The notes under the pieces were generated by a model. It was not told where the DNA came from. It ran no database searches and worked only from the letters and a program-made list of their open reading frames with translations. From an uncultured Oscillospiraceae bacterium (lineage in GTDB: Bacteria; Bacillota; Clostridia; Oscillospirales; Oscillospiraceae), in contig CANQTO010000035.1 in NCBI GenBank assembly GCA_947626785.1, positions 1 to 32,266 on the forward strand: 32,266 nucleotides of DNA, given 5' to 3'. Position numbers and translations under genes: made by a program. Shown one piece after another: positions 772 through 32,189 of the stretch (position 1 is the first letter of the stretch; every line of letters begins with the position of its first letter).

Positions 772-1779
772 TTACTCTTTCTCCGTCAGGAGCTTGAGGA
801 TCTGCACGGCGTTGCTGGCAGCGCCCTTGCGGATCTGATCGCCGCAGCACCAGAGGGTCAGGCCCTTGTCGTCGGTCAGGTCCTCCCGGATCCGGCCCAC
901 CCAGACCAGGTCCTGGTTGCTGGTGTCCAGAGGCGTGGGGTAGTTGCGGCCCTCGTAGTCCTCGATCAGGCGGCAGCCGGGATAGGCCCGGACGGCCTCC
1001 TTGGCCTCCTCCACACTGATCTTCCGCTCCGTGCGCACGGTGACGGAGATGGAGTGGGAGCGCATGACGGGGACCCGGACGCAGGTGCAGGTGACCTTCA
1101 GCTCCGGCAGGTGCAGGATGCGGCGGCCCTCGTTCTGCATCTTCATCTCCTCATCGGTGTAGAGGTTCTCCAGCTCGTCGCCGATGTGGGGGATCACGTT
1201 CAGGGCGATCTGGGTAGGGAAGGTCTTGGCCTCCGGCTTGCGCCCGGCGGCCAGATCGGCCATCTGCCGCTCCAGCTCCTCCAGGCCCGGCTGGCCGGCC
1301 CCGGACACGGCCTGATAGGTGCAGGCCACCATGCTCTGGATGGGCGAGAGCTTCGCCAGGCCCGCCACGGCCATCAGGGTGATGATGGAGGAGCAGTTGG
1401 GGTTGGCGATGATGCCCTCGTTGGTAAAGGCGTCGGCCCCGTTGATCTCCGGCACCACCAGGGGCACGTTGCTCTGGAGGCGGAAGGCGGAGCTGTTGTC
1501 GATATACACCGCGCCGCTCTTCACGATGGCCGGGGCAAACTTCCTGGACATGGGGTTCTTCACCGCGCCCAGCACGAAGTCCATCCCCTCAAAGCTCTGC
1601 TCGGTGGCCTCCCGGATGAGCACCGGCTGGCCCTTGAAGGTGACGGTGCCGCCCGCGCTGCGGGCGCTGGCCAGGGGCAGCAGCTTCCCCACGGGGATCT
1701 CATACTCCTCCAGGACCTTCAGCATCTCCCGGCCCACGGCGCCGGTGGCGCCCAGTATGGCAATGTTCCATTCTTTCAT
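772..1779 (-). CDS. asd: aspartate-semialdehyde dehydrogenase
   Basis: Reduces aspartyl-4-phosphate to aspartate 4-semialdehyde with NADPH, the second step of the aspartate family pathway, in the cytoplasm. The 335-residue length is typical. Visible features are the Rossmann motif LGATGAVG at residues 9-16, the catalytic cysteine in NPNCSS (Cys129), a conserved QAVSGAG segment, and the histidine-bearing VPVMRSHS region in the C-terminal half. The ATG at 1779 is preceded by GGGAGG. It is third in the leftward run hom-lysC-asd, 34 bases downstream of lysC, which places the first three common-pathway enzymes in one transcription unit. Confidence 0.96.
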   Translation of the reverse strand: MKEWNIAILGATGAVGREMLKVLEEYEIPVGKLLPLASARSAGGTVTFKGQPVLIREATEQSFEGMDFVLGAVKNPMSRKFAPAIVKSGAVYIDNSSAFRLQSNVPLVVPEINGADAFTNEGIIANPNCSSIITLMAVAGLAKLSPIQSMVACTYQAVSGAGQPGLEELERQMADLAAGRKPEAKTFPTQIALNVIPHIGDELENLYTDEEMKMQNEGRRILHLPELKVTCTCVRVPVMRSHSISVTVRTERKISVEEAKEAVRAYPGCRLIEDYEGRNYPTPLDTSNQDLVWVGRIREDLTDDKGLTLWCCGDQIRKGAASNAVQILKLLTEKE

Positions 1780-1813
1780 GTCGTTTATCCTCCCAATTTC
1801 TTATAATATGATC

Positions 1814-3127
1814 TTATCCGGCAAATCCGTCGTACATCACGCGGATGGCGGTCTCGAACTGTTCGTTTTCCACTCCTACTATTATAGCCAACTCGTCGGA
1901 GCCCTGTGCGATGGTACGGATGTTGACGCCCGCGTCGCCCAGCGCCTTGAAGAGCCGGCCGGAGACGCCGGGCTTGGAGGTCATTTTCCGGCCCACCGCC
2001 GCCACCAGGGCGATGCCCTCCTGGACGCTCACGTCGTCCGGGGCGCACTCCTTTTTCAGGTCGGCGATGACCTCGTACACCGCCTCCCCCAGGGCCCCGG
2101 TGGAGAGCACCAGGGCAAAGGAGTCCAGCCCCAGGGTGATGTGCTCCACGGGGGCCTTGTACCGGTCCAGGATGTCCAGGGCCTGGCTCAGGCTCCGGTT
2201 GGCGTTCAGGTTCCGCTTCTGCACCGTCAGGATGCTGAAGTTCCGCCGGCCGGCGATGCCGGTGATGAAGCGCTCGTGGCTGCCCTCGGCCTCGATGCTG
2301 TCCACGATCATGGTGCCCGGGTCCTGGGGCCGGTTGGTGTTGCGGATGTTCAGGGCGATGCCCTTCTCCTTCACCGGCTGGATGGAGTCCTCATGGAGGA
2401 CCGAGGCGCCCATGAAGGCCAGCTCCCTCAGCTCCGCGTAGGTGATCTTGGCGATGGGGGCCGGGTCCTTGACGATCCGTGGGTCCGCCATCAGGATGCC
2501 GGACACGTCCGTCCAGTTCTCGTACACGTCCGCGTCCGCCGCCGCGGCGGCCAGAGCGCCGCTGATATCGCTCCCGCCCCGGGACATGACCCGGATCTTC
2601 CCCGAGGGCAGCCGCCCGTAAAAGCCGGGGATCAGGATCCTGCCGTTGGCCTTCAGGGCGGCGGAGATGGCCTCATAGGTCCGCTCCTTGTCGATCCGGC
2701 CCTCCACGGTGAAGAACACGCTGGAGGCCGCGTCCACAAAGGTATAGCCCAGGTACTCCGCCAGCAGCCGGGAGGTGAAGTACTCCCCCCGGGACACCAG
2801 CTCGTCCACCGGCGTGTCCTTGTTCAGCCTAGCCATATAGGCCCGCAGCTCCGCCTCCACGTCGTAGCTCAGACCCAGGGCCTCCTTGATCTCCACAAAG
2901 CGCCGGAGGATGGTCTCTAAGATATCGTCACAGCTGACGCCGTAGGTCAGATGGGCGTGGCAGAGGTACAGCAGGTCCGTCAGCTTGTGGTCCTCGCTGC
3001 TGCGCTTGCCCGCCGCCGAGGACACCACGATCCGCCGGGCGGGGTCCGCCTCGATGATGGCCTTGACCTTTTTGAACTGCTCCGCTCCCGCCACCGAGGA
3101 GCCGCCGAATTTCGCTACCTTCAGCAT
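1814..3127 (-). CDS. lysC: aspartate kinase
   Basis: Phosphorylates aspartate with ATP, the entry step to lysine, threonine and methionine. The 437-residue protein begins with the amino acid kinase motif KFGGSS (residues 6-11). It carries SRGEYFTS for substrate binding and GRGGSD-type residues (MSRGGSDISGA) in the catalytic domain. Two ACT modules follow from roughly residue 290, the first around FSILTVQKRN and the second around GIALVAAVGRKM and GVNIRTIAQGS, so allosteric feedback by an end product is expected. The length suits a monofunctional enzyme. Its start (ATG at 3127, AGGAGG site) lies 4 bases after the hom stop, showing tight operon coupling. Which amino acid inhibits it cannot be deduced here. 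Confidence 0.96.
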   Translation of the reverse strand: MLKVAKFGGSSVAGAEQFKKVKAIIEADPARRIVVSSAAGKRSSEDHKLTDLLYLCHAHLTYGVSCDDILETILRRFVEIKEALGLSYDVEAELRAYMARLNKDTPVDELVSRGEYFTSRLLAEYLGYTFVDAASSVFFTVEGRIDKERTYEAISAALKANGRILIPGFYGRLPSGKIRVMSRGGSDISGALAAAAADADVYENWTDVSGILMADPRIVKDPAPIAKITYAELRELAFMGASVLHEDSIQPVKEKGIALNIRNTNRPQDPGTMIVDSIEAEGSHERFITGIAGRRNFSILTVQKRNLNANRSLSQALDILDRYKAPVEHITLGLDSFALVLSTGALGEAVYEVIADLKKECAPDDVSVQEGIALVAAVGRKMTSKPGVSGRLFKALGDAGVNIRTIAQGSDELAIIVGVENEQFETAIRVMYDGFAG

Positions 3128-3131
3128 GGTC

Positions 3132-4280
3132 TCAGCCTCCTATGGCGGCGAAGAAGAGCTCTCCGCCGGCCGCCCGGATCTCCTTGGCGGCGGCGTGCAT
3201 GGCCGCCGGGGACAGGGGCTTGGTGACCAGCCGGGCAAGGCCGTCTTCCGCCTCGCAGCTCTCCGAGGGGAGCCGGGCGGCAAAGGCCTCGGGCAGGCGC
3301 ACATAGTAGAGCCGGCTCAGGGCGGAATTGTCCGCCGCCCCGGCCTTGCAGCCGGGCTGGAGCATGGCCCGGTCCCCCTGGAGCACACAGCTCAGGTCCC
3401 GCAAGACCGCAGAGGCCGTGGGCCAGCGGCCCGCCCCCTGGCCCATCAGGACGATGGACCCGGCGCAGGCCCCCTCGTACTTGGCCATGTTGTAGTTTTC
3501 CAGCACGGAGCACTCGGGCGCGCCGGCGCGGAACAGCACCGGCTCCACAAAGGCGTACACGCTCCCGTCCGGGTTCCGGCCCCCCTGGGCCAGCAGACGG
3601 CAGGTATAGCCCCGGCTCTTCATATGGGCGGCGTCCGCCGCCGTCATGTTCTCGATCCCCTCGTTCAGAAGGCCCTCGGTGGGCAGGACGTCGTAGGCCA
3701 CGGCGCAGGCCAGCATGATCTTCCGCAGGGCGTCCAGCCCAGAGACGTCCGCCGTGGGGTCCGCCTCGGCGTAGCCCAGGCGCTGGGCGTCGGCCAGGGC
3801 CTGGCCGTAGTCCATGTCCAGCCGCTGCATGGCGTCCAGCATATAGTTGGTGGTGCCGTTGAGGATGCCGCCCAGGGAGCGGATCTCGTCGCTCTTGCGG
3901 GCGATAGACAGGTTGTGCAGGAAGGGCACGCCGCCGCCGCAGGCCGCGCTGAAGAGGAAGGCCGCGCCGCTCTCCTCCGCCAGGGCCTTCAGCTCGATGC
4001 CCTTGGCGGCCACCAGGGCCTTGTTGGAGGTGACAAAGTGCTTGCCCGCCTTCAGGGCCGCCGCGGCGTACTCAAAAGCGGGGCTCACGCCGCCCATGAC
4101 CTCCGCTACCGCCCCCACCGTGGGGTCGGAGACGATCTGCTCGATGGACGTGACCTTAAAGGGGGCGTCCGCCTTGCCCGGCCGCACCAGCACGGGCCCG
4201 GGCTCCAGGCCCTCCGCCTTTTTCAGCATCTCATAAACGCCGACGCCTACGACGCCGTATCCCAAAACCGCGACTTTCAT
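3132..4280 (-). CDS. hom: homoserine dehydrogenase, short form without a clear ACT domain
   Basis: Reduces aspartate semialdehyde to homoserine with NAD(P)H. The nucleotide fold starts at the N-terminus (VAVLGYGVVGVGV), SNKALVAAKG is the family TxNK-type segment, and GYAEADPTADVSGLDA followed by a lysine is the substrate/catalytic signature. At 382 residues it is shorter than the usual enzyme of over 400 residues with a C-terminal ACT domain. After residue 300 only YYVRLPEAFA vaguely resembles an ACT beginning and the rest is too short, so feedback control may be lost or exerted elsewhere. The ATG at 4280 has GGAGG 7 bases upstream. It is the first gene of the leftward operon, facing the ACT protein gene at 4417. 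Confidence 0.93.
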   Translation of the reverse strand: MKVAVLGYGVVGVGVYEMLKKAEGLEPGPVLVRPGKADAPFKVTSIEQIVSDPTVGAVAEVMGGVSPAFEYAAAALKAGKHFVTSNKALVAAKGIELKALAEESGAAFLFSAACGGGVPFLHNLSIARKSDEIRSLGGILNGTTNYMLDAMQRLDMDYGQALADAQRLGYAEADPTADVSGLDALRKIMLACAVAYDVLPTEGLLNEGIENMTAADAAHMKSRGYTCRLLAQGGRNPDGSVYAFVEPVLFRAGAPECSVLENYNMAKYEGACAGSIVLMGQGAGRWPTASAVLRDLSCVLQGDRAMLQPGCKAGAADNSALSRLYYVRLPEAFAARLPSESCEAEDGLARLVTKPLSPAAMHAAAKEIRAAGGELFFAAIGG

Positions 4281-16042: not shown

Positions 16043-16095
16043 CGTCAGAAGCCCGCGCCCCGGGGAGTTTTTCCCCGCGGCGGGTACAAAAACAG

Positions 16096-16226
16096 GCACA
16101 AGCCCATTCATCGTAAGCTTGTGCAGGACAGACTCAGCATTCTGGCTGAACGCCCGGCAGGGCGTATCACAGTGGCGGGACCGTGCGGGATTCACACCCG
16201 GCTTTCCTGAATAAATGCCTGCCCCT
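16096..16226 (-). ncRNA. cobalamin riboswitch
   Basis: On the minus strand the leader contains GGGTGTGAATCCC, then CGGTCCCGCCACTGTGA (the conserved core with CCCGCCACTGT), and further on AGCCAGAATGC followed by CCTGC, resembling the B12 box. GCAGG at about 16222-16218 can pair with CCTGC at 16127-16123 as the closing P1 helix. A hairpin GCACAAGC/GCTTGTGC (16124-16117 with 16103-16096) directly follows. The aptamer is short between its closing pairs, so peripheral helices may be reduced. It should repress btuFCD and the adenosyltransferase gene when corrinoid is abundant. Confidence 0.88.
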
Positions 16227-31025: not shown

Positions 31026-31103
31026 GCTGCCAGAGCCGCTCCTCTCATATCTCCCCCCTCCGGGCCATATACATGAAATACGAGAAAATGGGGAGTGGTG
31101 TCT

Positions 31104-31232
31104 GTGCGTACAAATATCGAGGAGCGCGCCTGCGACCTGGCCGCCTACATCATCGACAACAAAGCCACCGTCCGCGCCGCGGCCACACAGTTTGGCATCT
31201 CCAAGTCTACCGTACATACAGACGCAACGTAA
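31104..31232 (+). pseudogene. spoIIID: truncated, frameshifted spoIIID (5' part)
   Basis: From GTG 31104 (GGGAGTGG upstream) the frame encodes 42 residues with IEERACDLAAYIIDNKATVR and AAATQFGISKSTVH, the N-terminal helices and recognition helix of SpoIIID, the mother-cell sporulation regulator. The normal protein is about 80-90 residues with a basic C-terminal helix. Here the frame stops (TAA 31230) just after VHTDAT. Similarity resumes in the next frame for VKERF, as though about five bases were inserted, and then disappears near 31245. The basic tail is absent from all frames up to the repeat region. Probably a relic; a functional copy elsewhere would be expected if the organism sporulates. 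Confidence 0.65.
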
Positions 31233-31311
31233 AGGAACGGTTTATCTGGATCATAAAATGAGGCAGACAGCCCGTTTGATCCGGACGATAGGGCCAAAAT
31301 GTAAAAAACCG

Positions 31312-31341
31312 TTGACAGGTCAGCCTGCCACGGTCTATAAT
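31312..31341 (+). promoter_or_regulatory. strong promoter of small RNA copy 1
   Basis: A perfect TTGACA (31312-31317), 18 bases and a perfect TATAAT (31336-31341). The same arrangement recurs at 31999-32028. Confidence 0.8.
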
Positions 31342-31347
31342 ATGAAT

Positions 31348-31440
31348 ATAAAAGGGCGCTGCGCAAGCGGTTAGCCCTGTAGGGTTATAGTTTCAGAATA
31401 GAAACCGTCACCGGGCAGGGTGGCGGTTTCTGCGTTTTAC
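31348..31440 (+). ncRNA. putative small structured RNA, copy 1
   Basis: Downstream of the strong promoter there is no ribosome site or open frame. The predicted transcript of about 90 bases begins with a hairpin-forming GGGCGCTGCGCAAGCGG-TTAGCCC segment. It ends in a 13-bp stem (AGAAACCGTCACC at 31400-31412 with 31419-31431) followed by GCGTTTTAC, an intrinsic terminator. Its 3' half is complementary to the last codons and the 3' region of the peptide gene on the other strand, so it could act as an antisense RNA. I do not recognise a named RNA family. Confidence 0.55.
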
Positions 31441-31485
31441 GATAATCGTAACCGTGTAAGGTCCGATATGTAATGTAATCCGCAT
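31408..31485 (-). CDS. 25-residue basic peptide gene opposite the small RNA
   Basis: On the minus strand AAAGGGGGTGACGCC precedes ATG 31485, giving the best ribosome site of this area. The peptide begins MRITLHIGPYTVTIIV, alternating beta-like hydrophobic residues, and ends KRRNRHPAR, strongly basic. The Shine-Dalgarno GGGG pairs with CCCC across a GAAA loop (31493-31505), so translation may be held off. The stop lies inside the terminator stem of the converging small RNA. The mRNA could end at the GGGC...GCCC hairpin followed by TTTTATATT (about 31375-31343 read leftward). It may be a toxin-like or regulatory peptide. It could also be chance, but the ribosome site, promoter and duplication argue for a real gene. 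Confidence 0.5.
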   Translation of the reverse strand: MRITLHIGPYTVTIIVKRRNRHPAR

Positions 31486-31564
31486 GGCGTCACCCCCTTT
31501 CGGGGATCGTGACTAACCGCCTGCCGTTATATTGCAACGCCCCTGGTGCTATAGCACCACTGAC

Positions 31565-31593
31565 AGAATATCACGCGCTTCAACAAAAAGCAA
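31565..31593 (-). promoter_or_regulatory. predicted promoter of the peptide gene
   Basis: On the minus strand TTGCTT (31588-31593), 17 bases and TATTCT (31565-31570). The 5' leader of about 70 bases would contain GGTGCTATAGCACC (31542-31555), a self-complementary segment, and the hairpin that covers the ribosome site. Confidence 0.4.
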
Positions 31594-31602
31594 GGCAATT
31601 CT

Positions 31603-31968
31603 GCGTCTCTATCACGGCGACAGCATTTACTTTTAGATGTTTTAAAATGCTCAGTTACAAAGCATCATGGACTGGTTTTTTGAGCGGTATACATGGCTCC
31701 CCTGTGCAAGGGGAGCTGGCCGCGGAGCGGCCTGAGGGGTTGTAACCGGTAGCGAAAGTTTGCAGGTGAATATAGATGAAGATGCTCCGCGTGGTAAATC
31801 AAGCCTGTAAGCATCTTCATCCGGGACTCAAGTGGGACTGGGTACAGGTTACAACCCCTCCGCTTCGCTATCGCTCAGCACCCCCCCTTGCACAGGGGAG
31901 GCATTGGATCGGCTCGTAAAATATAACGCAGATTGAAAAAGTAAATGCTGTCGCCGTGGCGTCTCTAT
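31603..31968. mobile_element. non-autonomous transposable element (MITE-like) with 10-bp target duplication
   Basis: The element spans 31613-31958 (346 bp). Its ends are perfect 22-bp inverted repeats, CACGGCGACAGCATTTACTT plus TT at 31613-31634 and its complement at 31937-31958. Both ends are flanked immediately by the same 10 bases in direct orientation, GCGTCTCTAT at 31603-31612 and 31959-31968, a clear target-site duplication. No transposase frame is inside, so it must have been moved in trans. The 10-bp duplication suits some IS4-related elements, but I cannot assign a family. It lies 20 bp upstream of the predicted peptide-gene promoter. Confidence 0.8.
31693..31904. repeat. second inverted-repeat element nested inside the MITE
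   Basis: The ends match as inverted repeats: CTCCCCTGTGCAAGGGG at 31697-31713 and its complement at 31884-31900 (21 bp with one mismatch when extended). An inner pair follows, GAGGGGTTGTAACC (31734-31747) with its complement at 31847-31860. A third pair, GATGAAGATGCT/AGCATCTTCATC (31775-31786 with 31810-31821), forms the centre, so the whole 212 bp can fold into one long interrupted hairpin. Sequences of the type TCCCC-TGTGCAA-GGGGAGCT...GAGGGGTTGT are familiar to me as intergenic repeats of gut Firmicutes. Short frames reading through it are not genes. Confidence 0.75.
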
Positions 31969-31998
31969 GGGATGCGGAAAGTTTTCAATTAAAAACCG

Positions 31999-32028
31999 TT
32001 GACTGGCCGGCCTGTCATGGTCTATAAT
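31999..32028 (+). promoter_or_regulatory. strong promoter of small RNA copy 2
   Basis: TTGACT (31999-32004), 18 bases and TATAAT (32023-32028), in the same sequence context (AAAACCGTTGAC before, CCTG..A.GGTCTATAAT after) as copy 1. Confidence 0.75.
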
Positions 32029-32034
32029 GAGAAC

Positions 32035-32189
32035 GTAAAAGGGCGCTGCGCAAGCGGTTAGCCCGACAAGGTTAGATCAACATGGTTGAACCGTCACCGT
32101 GCCAGGTGGTATGCTCGTCCTTTTCACAGTCAGCGTTATCATAAAATGAAGCAAACGGTCCGTCGGCCGGGGGATTCCCCGGCCGACGG
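32035..32189 (+). ncRNA. putative small RNA, degenerate copy 2
   Basis: The first part is nearly identical to copy 1 (AAAAGGGCGCTGCGCAAGCG then GTTAGCCC, conserved without change). Further on only GAACCGTCACC and GGTGG remain, so the copy 1 terminator stem is broken. A perfect 13-bp GC-rich hairpin, CCGTCGGCCGGGG/CCCCGGCCGACGG (32160-32189), followed by GGGTC, may end the transcript instead. On the minus strand the peptide frame is lost: a related stretch reads ATAACGCTGACTGTGAAAAG but lacks a ribosome site and is frameshifted. The 3' boundary is a guess. 32190-32266 shows no recognisable feature. Confidence 0.4.

Follow-up and report, generated by a model that had tools for sequence, protein, structure and literature searches.

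In the Bacillus subtilis type I toxin-antitoxin pairs RatA/TxpA and SR6/YonT, binding of the antisense RNA leads to cleavage by RNase III, and SR6, an RNA of about 100 nt, overlaps its toxin gene at the 3' end, as passages of two sources describe (PMC6563280, PMC5848175). Several type I modules of B. subtilis and Clostridioides difficile sit in skin or prophage elements and, in C. difficile, CD2517.1-RCd8 and its relatives are convergent, overlapping toxin and antisense genes present as more than ten modules in one genome, according to parts of one of them (PMC6563280). In Helicobacter pylori aapA/IsoA, the toxin mRNA is silenced by a 5'-3' long-distance interaction and by hairpins that sequester the Shine-Dalgarno (SD) sequence, in an excerpt of PMC6733600. 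AapA1 and other type I membrane toxins are described as alpha-helical in a portion of PMC8309996.

A module that can be likened to these systems lies near the right end of a 32,266-nucleotide stretch of DNA from an uncultured Oscillospiraceae bacterium (assembly GCA_947626785.1, contig CANQTO010000035.1, positions 1-32,266), called the window below. The module is probably type I toxin-antitoxin-like, combining an mRNA predicted to be doubly silenced with an antisense RNA, and it belongs to a large family in Clostridia that appears to be undescribed. Two general traits of type I systems, a peptide of less than about 60 aa and an antisense RNA gene with its own promoter, can be read from the DNA.

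The first-pass annotation had placed a consensus promoter before a terminated short RNA, a ribosome site within a CCCC-GAAA-GGGG hairpin and the stop codon of a peptide gene inside the RNA terminator, and all three stand in the computed anatomy. The promoter of the antisense RNA, TTGACA-18-TATAAT (31312-31341, plus strand), matches at 12 of 12 bases and is the sole promoter-like match in a scan of 31250-31650 (shuffles: mean 0.6, sd 0.8). It would drive an antisense small RNA of about 90 nt, a putative antitoxin (31348-31438, plus strand, ends inferred), with a predicted fold of -39.4 kcal/mol (z -4.4) that comprises a 5' hairpin and a 14-bp terminator stem followed by a T run (31399-31438, plus strand). 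The opposite strand of this terminator encodes codons 17-25 and the stop of the peptide gene (31408-31485, minus strand; 25 codons, translation MRITLHIGPYTVTIIVKRRNRHPAR); gene and RNA are convergent, and the stop codon, 31410-31408, falls inside the 14-bp stem. The same 3'-end antisense overlap characterizes txpA/RatA, bsrG/SR4, bsrE/SR5 and yonT/SR6 of B. subtilis.

Upstream of the peptide frame, the SD sequence is held in the hairpin AUCCCC-GAAA-GGGGGU (31507-31492, minus strand), which is supported by the fold and by family covariation. Farther out, the two ends of the predicted 214-nt peptide mRNA are joined by a 24-bp helix between a leader arm (31543-31511, minus strand, made of 31543-31534 and 31524-31511; predicted fold and family tests) and a 3' UTR arm (31376-31353, minus strand; seen in the folds), the latter being the complement of the small-RNA 5' hairpin. 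The fold of this mRNA reaches -92.9 kcal/mol as compared to -61.7 for shuffles (z -6.5). The ribosome site lies outside the reach of the antisense RNA.

Two further claims of the first-pass annotation stood in part. It gave the peptide gene a promoter candidate of its own: the 25-codon frame is there, and the promoter in the window, TTGCTT-16-TATTCT (31593-31566, minus strand), is weak, matching by eye at 7 of 12 bases and missed by the promoter scans. It also read a GGGC..GCCC stem as the mRNA terminator: this stem, followed by TTTTATAT, is visible by eye within 31376-31353 (minus strand) and is a possible terminator, yet it is absent from the scan list, which instead holds a second terminator-like stem (31330-31313, minus strand) that precedes TTTTTT and overlaps the -35 region of the small RNA (shuffles: mean 0.3). 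Because the scan listed only the latter, the 3' end of the window mRNA is uncertain. The pairing of the leader with the 3' UTR, a second module copy at 31991-32120 and a split spoIIID gene were features that the annotation did not note.

The family is multicopy and patchily distributed. In the module's own genome, the small-RNA region gave 15 matches, six of them copies at E <= 4.9e-18 (the second window copy included), and five copies of the peptide were found. Recurrence of this kind, here and in other taxa, argues against a chance arrangement. Homologues of the peptide, which the first-pass annotation proposed to look for in relatives, occur in other genera and families: with the own genome counted each time, searches at E <= 0.1 recovered the peptide from 11 of 60 relatives, those at E <= 0.01 from 23 of 394 genomes of the order (three of which depend on the degenerate or doubtful matches L061, L062 and L064) and those at E <= 0.001 from 5 of 398 genomes of the phylum. 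A scan of genome contigs with a terminator pattern returned at least 120 stretches, some of which are not modules; among the 80 titles shown, nearly all were metagenome-assembled genomes of Oscillospiraceae, Lachnospiraceae, Ruminococcaceae, Clostridiales or Clostridia, many pointed to ruminants, and single records came from Evtepia, Pseudoflavonifractor, Gemmiger, Dysosmobacter and Blautia. A protein search yielded 247 relatives, and the 120 listed carry no Pfam domain and are named only 'hypothetical protein'. A module with both promoters, the SD hairpin and the leader motif can be read from the sequence of the named strain Vescimonas fastidiosa MM35, with the copy at 347104-347187 of NZ_AP023416.1; it lies on an 861-kb plasmid record between pnp and a regulator gene, where the PLSDB table, incomplete by design, lists no gene.

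The clostridial, convergent and multi-module CD2517.1-RCd8 systems resemble the family in these respects, a likeness of description and not of compared sequences. Modules also occur in clusters of two to four, about 120-450 bp apart and with some copies peptide-less (L074, L107, L106, L177, L125, L103; genome G284, contig C33). A viral origin was considered and rejected: modules were obtained from 8 of the 15 viral contigs that bear the pattern, phage records gave two weak-to-fair matches and plasmid records one.

Family-wide tests used 145 distinct modules, comprising the window copy, 48 from genome searches and 96 from pattern scans, which remained of 151 once six duplicates were removed. 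Dropped before that count were five similarity matches that are degenerate, cut or doubtful (L024, L037, L061, L062 and L064), a sixth, L040, that is identical with the window copy, and three pattern matches with unrelated frames. Removal of modules cut by contig ends left n = 138, 139, 143 or 126, depending on the test.

Outside the RNA terminator, purifying selection acts on the peptide frame. The codons ahead of the terminator have a pN/pS of 0.29 among 27-aa forms (1010 pairs) and of 0.14 among 25-aa forms (446 pairs), values that exclude pairs less than 3% or more than 35% divergent and are uncorrected for multiple hits. Disjoint pairs show the same bias, with 178 synonymous vs 133 non-synonymous differences in 32 pairs of 27-aa forms and 71 vs 28 in 15 pairs of 25-aa forms. 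Codons within the terminator show little synonymous change, as expected from the overlapping constraint, and the search pattern itself biases that part. Peptides range from 22 to 42 aa across the 145 modules, with a mean net charge of +5; taken position by position, the most frequent residues of the 27-aa form spell MPITLTFHI-xx-YTVTITVK, followed by a basic tail. A long form of 35-40 aa (L041, L042, L026, L033, L119, L161) has a lysine-rich tail that ends in ATPxK and runs through the same terminator stem in another frame.

Both promoters are conserved. At least 10 of 12 bases match in the RNA promoter of 134 of 138 modules and in the mRNA promoter of 93, so that the antitoxin promoter is the stronger of the two; for the peptide promoter, it is the family count that provides the support. 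When five shuffles per module were averaged, none of the 138 scored as high as 10, and the reverse strand reached that score in 11 (mRNA side) and 7 (RNA side). The SD hairpin covaries in the family: with 127 arms located among 143 modules, the duplex with an arm's own partner has an energy of -10.8 kcal/mol, as opposed to -9.5 with swapped partners (best of 300 swaps, -9.9) and -7.3 with shuffled ones. An earlier version that counted pairs from a poorly placed anchor gave 4.39 of 6 for own vs 4.27 for swapped partners (best of 500, 4.34).

The leader and the 3' UTR of the mRNA are predicted to form a conserved, co-varying long-range helix. Across 138 modules, the duplex of the two stretches scores -57.5 for own vs -43.4 for swapped partners, energies that are inflated because the stretches include promoter DNA, and none of 2000 permutations was as good. 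At least 10 leader/3' UTR pairs are found in 132 of 139 predicted transcripts, a count that is soft on its own because 133 of 278 folds with shuffled leaders attain that number as well; the mean is 25 pairs vs 10 for shuffled leaders. Where the leader and the antisense RNA differ in the best 10-base segment (usable in 125 of 126 modules), 48 differences keep a G-U pair on the mRNA strand and 10 break it (A.C), with 35 transversions besides; many of these differences are of common ancestry, and related sequences are not independent. One shared G/A position accounts for 28 of the 48; without G/A, T/C alone counts 20 vs 5 C/T and 5 A/G. A second segment, usable in 58 of 126 modules, gave 19 vs 9 (p 0.09, not significant) and 22 transversions. 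These counts are ungapped; a gapped version gave 242 vs 54 and was dominated by one shared G/A position. The direction of the bias is the one expected if the mRNA's own ends must pair.

The same observations bear on a very improbable alternative, in which the module is a selfish, MITE-like repeat whose inverted, promoter-bearing ends spread as a unit and whose peptide is incidental. The ends are indeed inverted repeats, reaching the -35 boxes in some cases, tandem arrays exist, and pairs of copies share about 235-446 bp before they diverge. Yet the strong synonymous bias in the peptide codons already disfavours a repeat, and the differences between leader and RNA run the way that RNA pairing would predict. 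Inspection by eye revealed no target-site duplication in the six usable of seven copy pairs (the seventh, a tandem pair, aligned to itself). As a caveat to the type I-like reading, gene conversion may account for some of the conservation of the inverted-repeat ends.

An mRNA closed 5' to 3' in the manner of hok and AapA is thus predicted from the fold, the co-variation and the count of 132 of 139 transcripts. In aapA/IsoA and hok/Sok, 5'-3' pairing and SD hairpins render the mRNA inert, in the passages of PMC6733600 that describe them, and the same is predicted here. By contrast, the SD sequence of aapA3 is trapped by the 3' end, as far as those passages go, whereas in the family it would have its own hairpin inside the closed loop. 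The match of the antisense RNA to the 3' part of the mRNA counts as another difference from aapA/IsoA and hok/Sok, and the conserved leader/3' UTR helix sets the family apart from txpA/RatA, bsrG/SR4, bsrE/SR5 and yonT/SR6.

Degenerate copies decay asymmetrically. Among 146 pattern sites, eight are cut; with a promoter defined as at least 9 of 12 bases, a limit that the reverse strand reached in 26 (mRNA side) and 49 (RNA side) of 138 modules, the 138 uncut sites comprise 98 with both RNA promoter and intact peptide, 32 with the RNA promoter only, 2 with the peptide only and 6 with neither. The rule for an intact peptide was our own and may miss odd starts (L160 is counted as holding a peptide, and L108 may hold another intact or near-intact frame of this kind), and the class with neither includes chance matches to the pattern. 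According to the first-pass annotation, homologous loci that keep the DNA and lose the frame would speak against the module; this is not the family-wide pattern, although 38 of the 138 uncut sites lack an intact peptide, 32 of which still carry the RNA promoter. In an earlier count, in which three sites were judged differently, the promoter matched at 10 or more of 12 bases in 32 of 35 peptide-less sites. From the other side, 50 of 51 peptides found by similarity are accompanied by an RNA promoter (score of at least 9), one of the 50 being the doubtful match L064 and the lone miss L062. Loss of the peptide is tolerated, and loss of the promoter with the peptide kept is rarely seen; decay that keeps the RNA is what a toxin-antitoxin pair predicts.

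The 32 sites that have an RNA promoter and no intact peptide, together with the second window copy, would suit a small RNA that acts mainly in trans on other mRNAs, with the peptide mRNA as a sponge or a secondary product. We think this very improbable: at many peptide-less sites the N-terminal frame has given way to unrelated residues, as a truncation would leave it, the RNA matches the peptide mRNA as an exact antisense, and selection on the peptide is strong. The type I-like geometry proposed by the first-pass annotation is supported at the sequence level by selection on the frame, conservation of both promoters, co-varying pairings and decay that keeps the RNA.

In its peptide the family departs from the described systems. 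The B. subtilis type I toxins have a transmembrane domain, as do the C. difficile toxins of 34-59 aa, in parts of the same source (PMC6563280); the family peptide is shorter than the former and predicted to be a beta-hairpin. Hydrophobic residues alternate with others along the chain: over residues 2-18 of 128 peptides, the hydrophobic moment reaches 0.48 at 160 degrees and 0.44 at 170 degrees, compared with 0.22 after shuffling, and only 0.18 at 100 degrees (0.22 after shuffling) and 0.14 at 180 degrees, these being the four angles tried. An AlphaFold2 model of a 32-aa relative, not of the 25-residue window peptide, was built on a 30-row alignment and folds as a beta-hairpin (strands 2-9 and 12-19) with a basic tail predicted to be unordered (pLDDT about 89 over the first 20 residues and 61-63 in the tail; pTM 0.34). 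The view of the first-pass annotation that the peptide is unlike the hydrophobic toxins agrees with this model, and neither the moments of the 128 peptides nor the model of the 32-aa relative indicates a hydrophobic alpha-helical transmembrane segment.

Profile searches with 75 members found no type I toxin family among the seven Pfam families matched at E <= 0.5 or the two NCBIfam families matched at E <= 0.1; we take these libraries to include TxpA/BsrG, Fst, Hok, Ldr, Ibs and TisB. PHROGs gave one family in 2 of the 75 members, and PADLOC no match. The best Pfam match was YrzI (PF09501; 7 of 75 members, best E 7.8e-4), also seen in NCBIfam (TIGR02413; 4 of 75, best E 1.8e-3). This weak profile similarity extends over residues 6-24, and its scores are below the curated cut-offs, with best values of 20 vs 23 bits (Pfam) and 18.4 vs 47.05 bits (NCBIfam). 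Kinship of the peptide with YrzI is a tentative lead, which the yrzI passages of PMC3871023, PMC10100781 and PMC4634765 neither confirm nor dismiss.

These properties, the missing hydrophobic helix and the YrzI similarity of 7 (Pfam) and 4 (NCBIfam) of 75 members, would also suit a reading in which the same antisense-controlled gene encodes a harmless regulator, its RNA tuning expression instead of guarding against a poison, and copies that sit among ordinary genes point the same way. Such a regulator, for example a peptide that binds a protein, an RNA or a membrane in stress or sporulation, seems unlikely: a dangerous product would better explain why an mRNA with two predicted layers of silencing is also faced with an antisense RNA, the RNA promoter is nearly constant where the peptide is intact (98 vs 2), the YrzI scores stay under their cut-offs, and the own genome holds no PF09501 match at E <= 1. 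Three features do count against the type I-like reading: a peptide that is not a hydrophobic helix, as type I toxins usually are, the weak peptide promoter of the window and an antisense RNA that leaves the ribosome site uncovered.

The window copy resides in a disrupted gene. The 5' part of spoIIID (31098-31232, plus strand; the frame ends at 31232) is truncated at what would be the left boundary of an integrated element; the gene is whole in a genome of the same genus (NCBIfam spore_III_D, 120.5 bits; cut-off, 111.5). Its 3' part lies on contig C40, where the region concerned is about 1546-3211 (L229, L226); it follows a large serine recombinase, the junction being overlapped by the recombinase stop codon, with a MobA-type relaxase fragment alongside. 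We infer that a single mobile element integrated in spoIIID, its middle lost in the assembly gap, and that the module sits about 100 bp inside the left end of this element. The arrangement can be likened to txpA/RatA in the skin element. A spoIIID split of this kind recalls skin-like intervening elements and may affect sporulation. The second, degenerate copy (31991-32120, plus strand, right end approximate) keeps the RNA promoter and the 5' hairpin and has lost the peptide N-terminus, resembling an orphan antitoxin.

Between the two copies, perfect 22-bp inverted repeats (31613-31958) flank 302 bp that hold another inverted repeat, which looks like nested small mobile repeats. In a permissive Rfam scan of 31240-32150, the one model returned was MIR1858, which fell on the palindrome 31691-31908 and scored well short of its gathering threshold, and the sole gathering-score match in the window is a cobalamin riboswitch elsewhere (AdoCbl, 16091-16224, minus strand, 57.1 bits). 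Linkage to mobile elements was rejected as a family-wide rule. In the neighbourhoods of 20 modules, 70 of 78 ORFs were scanned (those under 700 aa) and gave 56 Pfam families; because the 25 shown are mostly ordinary metabolic or housekeeping families, with one phage portal and one integrase, a general link is unsupported.

Returning to the type I-like reading, the minus-strand gene would be transcribed into a short mRNA, and the cationic, amphipathic beta-hairpin peptide translated from it would probably harm the cell if overproduced. The full-length mRNA would be silenced by the local hairpin that hides its Shine-Dalgarno sequence and, as a second layer, by the leader/3' UTR helix that closes the molecule. 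The strong convergent promoter would produce the antisense RNA of about 90 nt, complementary to roughly the last 40% of the mRNA, that is, to the end of the coding region and the 3' UTR. Since its 5' part resembles the leader sequence, this RNA and the leader would be rivals for the 3' UTR, and the duplex formed with the RNA may be a substrate of RNase III, as in the RatA/TxpA and SR6/YonT pairs. We propose such double silencing, by a folded mRNA and by antisense-directed decay, on the model of those pairs and of AapA/IsoA; the module may also serve to keep a mobile or chromosomal segment in place.

The class of system is known, and the type of peptide and the combined RNA control appear new within the literature searched. 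The six peptide and terminator strings occur in no paper of that literature, which consisted of main texts and took in few subscription papers, and none of the titles and opening abstract lines listed for type I systems and small gut proteins reports the family. We see an even chance that the family constitutes a new type I class, widespread in gut Clostridia, with a cationic beta-hairpin toxin and combined RNA control; that such control joins an SD hairpin, a closed 5'-3' mRNA and a 3'-convergent antisense RNA copying the mRNA leader is a proposal of equally balanced standing.

If this is right, many gut and rumen Clostridia carry an antisense-controlled peptide system, in many cases with more than one copy to a genome, whose gene is so short that it easily escapes notice. 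A beta-hairpin toxin would be added to a field built on membrane helices, and more than 100 modules would make a natural experiment on the coevolution of sense, antisense and long-range RNA pairing. The system can be tested in the named strain Vescimonas fastidiosa MM35, which carries a copy, and it would allow one to ask whether such modules hold mobile elements, here the one in spoIIID, in place.
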